Positions 3,913 through 11,643 of a stretch of 64,000 nucleotides of DNA are shown here, one piece after another (the stretch's first letter is position 1; the number at the start of each line of letters is the position of its first letter). Under the pieces are notes generated by a model that was not told the DNA's origin, ran no database searches, and was given only the letters and a program-made list of their open reading frames with translations. The position numbers and the translations under genes are program-made. Source of the DNA: Acidobacteriota bacterium (lineage in GTDB: Bacteria > Acidobacteriota > Thermoanaerobaculia > Gp7-AA8); the NCBI GenBank assembly GCA_021781455.1, contig JAJXWV010000047.1, positions 62,001-126,000 on the forward strand. The letters run 5' to 3'.

Positions 3913-5835
<1,923 letters not shown>

Positions 5836-5859
5836 AATTGCTTCTCCTTCTATGACTTA

Positions 5860-5974
5860 GCAGTATATGAGTCTACTGCCATCAACTTTAACTGAAGACG
5901 TAAACCTGAGTCTAGCATTGTTAATTCCCGATGCGAAGAGCGTTCCGGCGTGCTTAAGCGGCAGGCGACTCAAG
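5860..5974 (-). promoter_or_regulatory. dnaK promoter region with inverted repeat and HAIR-like site
   Basis: On the minus strand a -10-like TATACT lies inside an inverted repeat, GCAGTA and TACTGC (5860-5879), 25-45 bases before the dnaK start. Farther upstream (5953-5974) the minus strand has CTTGAGT, 8 bases, then GCTTAAG. The HspR consensus is CTTGAGT-N7-ACTCAAG, so one half-site is perfect and the other matches 5 of 7 with a spacer one base too long. It is plausible but weak as an HspR operator. The rest of the 5836-6136 gap shows no gene. Confidence 0.35.
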
Positions 5975-6136
5975 CGCTTACCTTCAGGCTGGCTCGACAA
6001 CCGCACGCGGTGCCCGGAGGTCGCTGCACCTCGAACGAACGAGATCTGCGCGTCGTCTCAGCAAAGACACGAGCCCGTCGAATGAGATGCGACGGCAGCT
6101 TGTTATCATCGCCGCAAATCGGAGGAGAAATTCTCA

Positions 6137-6853
6137 ATGGATCAATTCCAACAGCAACCAGCCTGGATCAGCTCGAGCACGGTGGAGACGGATCTGCGGG
6201 TACGGACCTTCGTCCGCACCGTGTACGCATGGATGTTCGGAGGCCTGCTGCTGACCGCCTTCGCGTCGATGTGGGTGATCAGCTCGCGCGCCATGCAGCA
6301 GATGATCTTCGGCAACCGCATCGTTCCGTTCGTGCTCTTCGGCGCGGAGTTGCTTCTCGTGTTCGGCCTCTCGGCCGCGCTCCAGCGGCTCTCCAGCGCC
6401 GCCGCGGCATCGATGTTTCTGATCTTCTCGCTGCTGAACGGCCTGAGCCTCAGCGCGATCTTCTTCGTCTACACGCAGGCGTCGATCGTTCAGGCTTTTG
6501 TCACGGCGGCCGGCATGTTCGGGGCGATGGCCGTCTTCGGCCTGGTCACGAAGAAGGACCTCACTTCCTGGGGATCGTTCTTCTTCATGGGCCTGATCGG
6601 GATCGTGATCTGCTCGGTGGTGAACATCTTTCTGCACTCCGGCGGGCTTTCGTTCGTGATCAGCGTCGTCGGCGTGTTCGTCTTCGTCGGGCTGACGGCC
6701 TACGACAACCAGAAGCTGAAGAGATACGCGACGGTGACCGGCGACATGCAGCAGAACCTCGCCATCGTCGGGGCCTTGGCTCTCTACCTCGATTTCATCA
6801 ACCTGTTCATCATGCTCCTCCGCCTCTTCGGCGGCGGCAACCGGCGCAACTAA
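6137..6853 (+). CDS. Bax inhibitor-1 (BI-1)/YccA family membrane protein
   Basis: This 238-residue protein has about seven hydrophobic helices, starting near residue 30 and ending in LALYLDFINLFIMLLRLFGGG. The last segment is the family hallmark: an acidic residue in the final helix before a basic tail. The bacterial family includes YccA, which modulates FtsH, and BsYetJ, a pH-gated calcium leak channel, so a role in membrane proteostasis or ion leak is inferred. The start follows GGAGGAG seven bases upstream, and a TATCAT -10-like box sits at 6104-6109. It is transcribed alone and ends at a hairpin terminator. Confidence 0.9.
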   Translation: MDQFQQQPAWISSSTVETDLRVRTFVRTVYAWMFGGLLLTAFASMWVISSRAMQQMIFGNRIVPFVLFGAELLLVFGLSAALQRLSSAAAASMFLIFSLLNGLSLSAIFFVYTQASIVQAFVTAAGMFGAMAVFGLVTKKDLTSWGSFFFMGLIGIVICSVVNIFLHSGGLSFVISVVGVFVFVGLTAYDNQKLKRYATVTGDMQQNLAIVGALALYLDFINLFIMLLRLFGGGNRRN

Positions 6854-10765: not shown

Positions 10766-10840
10766 GAGGCATGAAAACTTTCGAGCCACCCGGGTAGGGA
10801 AAGCGGCTCGGCGGTCACTCCTCAGGCGGGAGAGGTCTTT

Positions 10841-11236
10841 ATGAAGCTCGTCGCGAGCGTCGCCAGGAGCATAGCCGCGAGTCCGGAGGTCGAGACGCTG
10901 CTGCTGTCGAACGACCAGCTGCAGTACCTCGAGCGAATCAGCCAGTCGATGAACCCGGAGATGCCGGGGGCCTTCGGCTGGCCACACGTCGTTCGCGCCA
11001 TTCTCGACAGGGTCGAGAAAAGCGGCATCGACCTCACTGCGGCGCGCAATGAAGAAGAGATCACCCAGCTCGCAGCGGGGGGGCTGCGAGGTCGCTACGG
11101 ACGCCGGCCGGCGCGGCTCAGCGAGCCGCTTTCCTCTTCCCGGTTCCGACGAGCAGATCGACCAGCGTGTCGAGTGAATCGGCCTGGGACAGGTCGATGC
11201 CACTCTGGAACGCCGCCTCGATCAGGCCGCGAATGA
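10841..11236 (+). CDS. Small RHH-like protein, 3' end probably rearranged
   Basis: GGAGAGG lies 7 bases before the ATG, and the first about 80 residues look like a real protein: VETLLLSNDQLQYLERISQS, then a loop, then WPHVVRAILDRVEKSGIDL and an acidic helix. This pattern (strand, helix, loop, helix ending SGIDL) matches the opposing gene at 11118-11393, which has VVLLDRHVAYLDRLAIDI and AEIIRGLIEAAFQSGIDL. I infer two diverged copies of one ribbon-helix-helix-type DNA-binding protein. After residue about 88 the product turns into Arg/Pro-rich sequence lying opposite the other gene, so the true C-terminus was probably lost when the two became convergent. The target is unknown. Confidence 0.6.
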   Translation: MKLVASVARSIAASPEVETLLLSNDQLQYLERISQSMNPEMPGAFGWPHVVRAILDRVEKSGIDLTAARNEEEITQLAAGGLRGRYGRRPARLSEPLSSSRFRRADRPACRVNRPGTGRCHSGTPPRSGRE

Positions 11237-11393
11237 TCTCGGCCCGGCTGATGGCCTTTCCGTGCTTGAGACGGATGTCGATGGCCAGCCGGTCGAGATA
11301 GGCCACATGCCGGTCGAGCAGGACGACCGTAATTTTGGCCCAGGGTTCGGTGTGTACGATGGGACGACCGCGATTGCTCTTGACAGGACTCAC
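11118..11393 (-). CDS. Ribbon-helix-helix (CopG-like) small DNA-binding protein
   Basis: This 91-residue basic protein starts at a GTG with GAGGAG 7 bases upstream. KITVVLLDRHVAYLDRLAID (about 20-39) fits the RHH strand and first helix, and ISRAEIIRGLIEAAFQSGID (about 48-67) the second helix. A short acidic tail and the basic end KRKAAR follow. RHH proteins bind DNA as dimers and often repress their own gene, commonly as antitoxins, but no toxin gene adjoins. A nested perfect dyad (11418-11459) lies 25-66 bases upstream and is a natural autoregulatory operator. The 3' end overlaps the convergent gene at 10841-11236. Confidence 0.7.
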   Translation of the reverse strand: MSPVKSNRGRPIVHTEPWAKITVVLLDRHVAYLDRLAIDIRLKHGKAISRAEIIRGLIEAAFQSGIDLSQADSLDTLVDLLVGTGKRKAAR

Positions 11394-11417
11394 GCGTACT
11401 CCTCGAAGTTGAATTTT

Positions 11418-11459
11418 TTGACCGGGCGAAGGAAAGTCTAGTTCCTTCGACGGTCAAAG
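11418..11459. promoter_or_regulatory. Nested dyad, likely operator of the RHH gene
   Basis: Outer arms are TTTGACCG (11418-11425) and CGGTCAAA (11452-11459). Inner arms are CGAAGGAA (11428-11435) and TTCCTTCG (11443-11450). Both pairs are perfect. The surrounding sequence is unusually AT-rich for this genome, as expected of a promoter. The minus-strand gene starts at 11393. Confidence 0.6.
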
Positions 11460-11643
11460 TCTATTTTTCCTTATCTAAGTTTTGGCTGCAAGAAGCCCGT
11501 GCTGGCCAGCCATCGCCGGACCCACGGCGCTACGGCTGGAGGTGGAGCAGCATTTCCGTTGCTCCTCACTGACCGATGTTAAACCGGAGCGGTCGCTGCT
11601 GCAATCGGCCAATTATCGCGCCCGTCATCCGCTTGTAACCCAT

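Follow-up and report, generated by a model that had tools for sequence, protein, structure and literature searches.

Two small genes lie tail to tail in a 64,000-nucleotide stretch of an Acidobacteriota contig (JAJXWV010000047.1, positions 62,001 to 126,000), which we call the window. One of them, gene A, probably encodes a small DNA-binding protein. The other, gene B, encodes its diverged paralogue. The features at this locus are:

10792–10822, plus strand: promoter element of B, GGGTAGGGA-N15-CACTCCT, of the ECF-sigma type; exact at 15 of the 16 orthologous loci
10841 to about 11119, plus strand: gene B, homologous part; an RHH-like paralogue that has neither the RGRP arm nor the basic residue of the strand
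11120–11236, plus strand: ORF B's run-on tail, which lies antisense to where gene A ends
11118–11393, minus strand: gene A, 91 amino acids, GTG start; a basic RHH-like protein with an RGRP (AT-hook-like) arm
11417–11458, no strand: dyad in two layers, enclosing the -10 element of A; a possible operator
11435–11463, minus strand: promoter of A, sigma70-like, TAGACT-N17-TAGACT

The first-pass annotation of this DNA described two convergent RHH-like genes that overlap by 119 bases, and the list of ORFs in the window confirms both reading frames and the peptides that were quoted from them. The full ORF B runs from 10841 to 11236 on the plus strand (131 amino acids) and shares 11118–11236 with ORF A, which is indeed 119 bases. 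The overlap is incidental: it is long (113–125 nt) in just 7 of the 16 loci with the pair, while in 8 of the 16, ORF B stops at or near the stop codon of A (-4 to +10 nt). (At the remaining locus, L051, a gap of Ns makes the overlap uncountable.) The homologous part of B finishes before A begins, and judging from the sequence, the long tail over A is a run-on and probably not a functional part of the protein.

We scanned six neighbors, which encode a permease-family protein, an FAD/amine oxidoreductase, a pair of ABC transporter proteins, an M48 peptidase, and a Na/H exchanger. There is no toxin among these transport, redox, peptidase, and exchanger genes, as the first-pass annotation had also noticed, and the neighboring toxin that marks a toxin-antitoxin module is thus not seen among the six.

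Several comparisons give good support for A and B being paralogues, with a likeness that is far above chance. The earlier suggestion that they are diverged copies thus holds up. Direct BLASTP aligns 62 amino acids without gaps at 24% identity (E = 2e-7), and within their own 4.9-Mb genome, A and B are each other's second-best match (E = 0.053 and 0.031). The comparison of HMMs that had been suggested as a check, which we ran with hhalign on profiles of 15 B and 26 A-family sequences, gives a probability of 97.6% and E = 2.6e-12 across 67 ungapped columns. A wider A profile matches the B profile with 98.2% probability. (This wider comparison and the later trees used 10 of the 15 B sequences and 6 or 7 of the 18 A sequences.) Furthermore, when 396 genomes from the phylum were searched with the A-family profile, gene B was picked up in three genomes of the family (E = 4e-7, 2e-6, and 4e-5).

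How the two copies arose is another matter. The first-pass annotation proposed an inverted duplication, after which one copy lost its end. This is not supported: B has the whole homologous region, and our trees neither date nor orient the duplication. With two sequences from locus L242 removed, B groups with the family's A copies with support of only 64/25, and a clade of B with group f8 is not rejected by a tree test (p-AU = 0.28). (The B protein of L053 was left out of the first tree.) We also considered the truncation of one copy by itself and rejected it, as B covers the homologous part in full and the long tails are run-ons that are absent from half of the relatives.

The pair is typical of most genomes in one family of soil Acidobacteria. 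A is present in 15 of the 17 other genomes of this family, with 82–93% identity. At all 15 of these loci (L044–L058), as in the window, we read the DNA and found B tail to tail with A. The other two genomes, G004 and G013, have neither gene, which leaves the pair in 16 of 18 genomes. The B protein at L053 is highly diverged (25% identity), was missed by the protein search, and was found by reading the DNA; it may have lost its function. L051 was left out of the B alignments because of its gap, and L059 and L060, which have A without B, were left out of the counts of pairs. In a search of 100 genomes, no match to B at E = 0.01 lay away from A, apart from A-like proteins. Additional copies of A without an adjoining B were seen at L060, where we read the ORFs, and at L062–L064, where we used tblastn with the window's B. 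The surroundings vary: in the flanking DNA examined, B adjoins the oxidoreductase in the window and at 6 of the named loci (L044–L058). The window and 5 of these 15 loci have ABC transporter genes on the upstream side of A.

Two other loci are worth mentioning here. An 80% identical copy of A (L059, 3001–3240) is on a 70-kb contig that is labelled as Paceibacterota; the contig was probably misbinned or the gene transferred. And in another family of the class, two overlapping ORFs in tandem look RHH-like by eye (L242, 1453–2123, minus strand), which is perhaps a second paired case.

A and B differ sharply in how fast they evolve. The core of A is invariant at 51 of 57 columns across the 16 loci, and A orthologues are 96–100% identical in this core, as compared to 64–72% for the neighboring oxidoreductase. 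In the core of B, just 6 of 69 columns are invariant (14 sequences, with L053 left out). B is fast-evolving, yet it is under purifying selection: pN/pS relative to the window's B is 0.43–0.85 (14 comparisons), and dN/dS is about 0.1–0.2 for three pairs among L055–L057, with many of the dS values near saturation.

The two proteins also differ in charge and in motifs. A has a pI of 10.0–10.3 at 16 of 16 loci. The core of B (the first 82 residues) has a pI of 4.1–5.7 in 13 of 15 proteins; the exceptions are L052 (7.0) and L057 (8.4). The pI of the whole B protein, as aligned, ranges from 4.2 to 10.8 and reaches 8.4 or more in 5 of 15 cases (8.4 in the window, and also L049 and L055–L057), because many B proteins end in a basic, RRR-type stretch. 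This basic tail might bind nucleic acid. All 16 A proteins have RGRP just before the strand, which we take to be an AT-hook-like arm, and none of the 15 B proteins has GRP. The strand itself reads K-I-T-V-V-L in A, in place of which 13 of the 15 B proteins have E-T-[LIV]-x-L (L053 and L054 differ). B has a conserved core of its own, with the consensus NPxMPxAFGWPHAIRxILDR.

That the A family belongs to the RHH proteins is likely but unproven. The first-pass annotation's label of RHH-like is plausible, yet no RHH profile matched at E < 0.01: the sole RHH match from Pfam was RHH_8, to one of the 26 A-family sequences (E = 0.042), and none of the 15 B sequences had any. Like the CopG/Arc/MetJ regulators (RHH_1), the A family appears to have the order strand, helix, helix, with a SRAEIIR motif at the expected place. 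Unlike in those regulators, a third helix follows in the predicted models of A and B, and comparing the A-family profiles to the RHH_1 set gives E = 0.001 to 0.005 but probabilities of just 7–20%, with only 0.9% for the B profile. (The RHH_1 profile used for B included L255 and L273, which are in the wrong frame; a later version went without them. L269–L272 were left out.) A search of the genome with RHH_1 matched two other loci and neither A nor B, and sequence searches of Pfam and the PDB found no convincing family for either protein. NCBIfam and PHROGs, searched with A, gave weak matches. In PHROGs, phrog_2503 (unknown) matches 22 of the 26 A-family sequences (best E = 0.0003) and phrog_4738 (transcriptional repressor) matches 19 of 26 (best E = 0.0046). 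In NCBIfam, TIGR02574 ("putative addiction module component") matches 2 of 26, weakly (best E = 0.0049), which is at odds with the lack of a toxin among the six neighbors. The AlphaFold models of the monomers are modest (pLDDT of 70 and 78); they have helices at corresponding positions, and the strand is modelled as coil or helix. Foldseek and VIA-align, run on these monomers, returned weak and unrelated hits with no RHH chain among them, which is not evidence against the RHH fold.

Directly before the start codon of B is a conserved element that the first-pass annotation overlooked and that is very probably, from its sequence and distribution, a promoter for an ECF sigma factor. The element, GGGTAGGGA-N15/16-CACTCC, is exact at 15 of the 16 loci; the exception is L046, with a single mismatch (CTCTCC). 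The 18 genomes of the family contain 160 exact copies, of which 15 are B's own, while the reversed pattern occurs once. Every one of these genomes has at least one copy; the sole copy in G008 is B's. The window's own genome has 4 exact copies, against 1 for the reversed pattern. Across the other 130 genomes of the class, there are 3 copies as compared to 6 for the control. If two mismatches are allowed (with a spacer of 15), then the window's genome has 6 sites and the control has 4, so the weaker sites in this genome are indistinguishable from chance.

We read 84 of the 160 exact sites in detail, none of which are B's own. The spacer is 15 nucleotides in 68 of the 84 and 16 in the other 16; spacers of 14 or 17 never occur, although our pattern allowed both. 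There is also bias beyond the pattern, towards A or T following GGGTAGGGA and, around CACTCC, towards G and T in front of it and T behind it. Among the 68 sites with a spacer of 15, the -10 side has C at 57%, G at 71%, and T at 63%. The -35 box lacks AAC. An ORF with an ATG start and at least 60 codons begins no more than 70 nt downstream of 60 of the 84 sites. On the opposite side, 16 of 84 have such an ORF, as do 485 of 1,680 random places. The element thus has what is expected of an ECF promoter, with a pair of boxes at fixed spacing that precede start codons and recur near ECF genes. One such place is in the window's own genome (G000:C74, locus L111):

5926–6522, minus strand: gene for an ECF sigma factor (Sigma70_r2, E = 7e-6)
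4580–5929, minus strand: gene for a 449-amino-acid TPR protein that starts with HxxxCxxC
near 4505–4535: GGGTAGGGA element, after the pair of sigma factor and TPR genes

We read the TPR protein, from its HxxxCxxC start, as a candidate anti-sigma factor of the zinc type. The gene behind this copy of the element encodes a small, secreted-looking protein that ends in PKP. Matches to the L111 sigma factor at E < 1e-60 are found in 15 of the 18 family genomes, and in at least 9 of these 15 (including the window's own), the element lies 1338–1415 bp downstream of the sigma factor gene on the same strand. Of 38 weaker matches to the sigma factor, 7 have the element 57–390 bp upstream. It is the 160 copies versus 1 for the reversed pattern, along with several copies beside ECF sigma factor genes, that point to an ECF promoter. 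Classic ECF sigma factors have AAC and CGT boxes and positive autoregulation, according to a review (PMC8103513). As in known regulons of ECF sigma and anti-sigma factors, our element is bipartite with two spacings, lies beside or upstream of ECF genes, and is rich in CGTC on the -10 side. Unlike in the classic ECF groups of PMC8103513, its -35 side is GGGTAGGGA instead of AAC, and the candidate anti-sigma factor has TPRs. A literature search found no description of the GGGTAGGGA motif as a promoter, which does not prove that there is none.

The genes behind the element are varied and include sigma factors, AraC-type regulators, phospholipases, and a TonB receptor, as well as small proteins that appear by eye to be secreted. 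We scanned the products of 76 of the 84 ORFs (those with 55 amino acids or more) with PADLOC and obtained four weak families with one member each, so we do not claim a defence theme. Also, G004 and G013 retain 4 and 5 elements without having A or B, so A is not the element's purpose.

Two kinds of genes behind the element caught our attention. A recurrent protein of about 60–75 amino acids (SERVLDRLADILFASDEILDM ... NELMKTLTD) is encoded there at L112, L148, L156, L173, L191, L199, and L219. And at L183 and L206 (5835–6977), ORFs that resemble a TIR-type protein (judged by eye) and a patatin-like phospholipase follow the element.

Matches to A outside of the family are sporadic: just 12 of 396 genomes from the phylum have one, and 5 of these 12 are the window's own genome and four others from the family. 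We examined eight distant relatives, of which four have a ParA-type gene directly upstream on the same strand (L233 and L234, from Pfam; L236 and L276, from the Walker motif). L276 is a contig from a virus collection. At the other four loci (L232, L235, L237, and L238), there is no ParA Walker motif within the flanking DNA that was examined. The genes after ParA at L233 and L234 had no convincing match in Pfam, and a search of plasmids found no match for A or for its relative from L234. Nor is there a Walker ParA motif in the window or, within the DNA examined, at any of the 17 loci L044–L060. Because a ParA-type gene is beside half of the distant relatives and none is seen beside A, the best reading of these sequences is that A is an orphan from a family in which ParA is a frequent partner.

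We tentatively propose that B is an inhibitor that is induced by ECF sigma factors and pairs with A. The proposal builds on the homology of A and B, their convergent linkage, the class of B's promoter, and the contrasts in rate and core charge, all of which come directly from sequence comparison. A, an orphan of a putatively RHH-like family whose relatives often partner with ParA, would be made from its sigma70-like promoter, and its extreme constraint is what we would expect of a protein that touches many DNA sites or fixed ones. B would be a paralogue that has lost the arm with RGRP and the strand's basic residue and kept the region that is expected to dimerise. ECF sigma factors would activate the transcription of B, and at least one of these factors has a partner gene for a TPR-containing, anti-sigma-like protein. 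As B accumulated, it would pair with A and remove it from the DNA, and the expression of A's putative targets would change in response to the ECF signal. In other words, B may be a switchable brake on A. We infer the RHH fold, the heterodimer, the antagonism, and the existence of A's targets. Some of our observations fit poorly with the inhibitor: B as a whole is not uniformly acidic, with its basic tails, and the cores of two B proteins (L052 and L057) are neutral or basic. The AlphaFold monomers are modest, the match of B to RHH_1 is at 0.9%, and the B of L053, at 25% identity, may no longer work.

The principle would resemble that of the Id proteins, which lack the basic domain and are dominant inhibitors of bHLH factors (PMC2967066). 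A binder of the RHH type would be restrained by a linked paralogue that has lost the DNA-gripping arm and strand and kept the dimerising region, and the inhibitor would be deployed by a lineage-specific ECF regulon. We consider this generalization to be speculative and somewhat doubtful. The likeness is only in the proposed logic, a dimerising paralogue without the DNA-binding part; A and B are of an unrelated fold and from another kingdom, and antagonism by B is putative. If the analogy is true, then a frozen and possibly nucleoid-wide DNA binder has been rewired to respond to stress. This is a testable case of a paralogue that possibly turned into an inducible inhibitor. Searches of the literature on RHH antagonists, on ECF sigma factors with TPRs or in Acidobacteria, and on RHH proteins with ParA turned up no title on the A-B pair, although this does not prove absence. 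An unnamed and highly conserved family of small proteins is tied to a family-wide ECF-type promoter for which we found no description, and the promoter motif allows a regulon to be mapped directly in soil Acidobacteria that are uncultured.

Alternatively, B could be a neofunctionalised regulator with a changed DNA specificity, so that A and B have separate targets and their linkage is historical. The conserved core that B has for itself, the purifying selection, and the often basic tail are all as expected for such a regulator. But B has lost the arm and the basic residue of the strand, its core is acidic in 13 of 15 proteins, and it co-occurs with A, none of which fits well, and we think this explanation is rather unlikely.

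We also considered that A might be a chromosomal centromere-type protein, similar to the RHH-ParBs, whose ParA is encoded elsewhere; B would then modulate partition and not transcription. A is small and RHH-like, as are the centromere-binding proteins ParG of TP228 and Omega of pSM19035, and ParA-type genes are directly upstream of its relatives at L233, L234, L236, and L276. Unlike in those systems, A has no adjoining ParA, carries the RGRP arm, and is accompanied by B. With no ParA motif in the window or in the DNA examined at L044–L060, a centromere role for A seems unlikely. Roles in partition and in transcription could coexist, since RHH-ParBs also bind promoters of their own systems, according to PMC9499535.

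It is still less likely that B acts chiefly in cis, with ECF-driven convergent transcription and run-on antisense RNA lowering A and with the B protein being secondary. As this explanation would have it, the genes are tail to tail at every one of the 16 loci, and their junctions range from about -125 to +10 nt. However, the extent of the overlap varies, and the non-synonymous sites of B are constrained, so the B protein matters.

This leaves the dyad upstream of A. A sigma70-like promoter of A, TRGAC[TAG]-N16/18-TANACT, is found at 14 of the 16 loci (all but L053 and L054), at a distance of 63 to 90 nt ahead of A's start. In the window, the dyad encloses the -10 element of this promoter, and both layers are at the positions given by the first-pass annotation and are exact: outer arms at 11417–11424 and 11451–11458 (TTTGACCG and CGGTCAAA) and inner arms at 11427–11434 and 11442–11449 (CGAAGGAA and TTCCTTCG). 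The annotation viewed the dyad as the operator for the product of A, and suggested searching the genome for more copies. Searching for the outer arms by their 7-base cores (TTGACCG, 22–30 bases, CGGTCAA, exact) gives just one place in the genome. With arms that occur once, and with a dyad sequence that varies while the core of A is nearly invariant, it is doubtful that the dyad is A's own operator. As the single best inverted repeat, the window's dyad has p = 0.11 (200 dinucleotide shuffles). A nested dyad that is conserved as the operator of A is not supported. The dyad may nevertheless be an operator of A, though not a conserved site of this near-invariant protein. As for the pair being a simple autoregulated couple with the dyad as A's operator, we consider this to be very unlikely: the dyad does enclose the -10 element, and L046 and L050 have perfect dyads of different sequence in roughly this position (p = 0.03 and 0.01), but the window's dyad is not significant, is at one genomic place, and has arms that diverge among relatives whose A cores are nearly identical. 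Across all 16 upstream regions, Fisher's method gives p = 0.004, which is driven by a few loci with differing arms.
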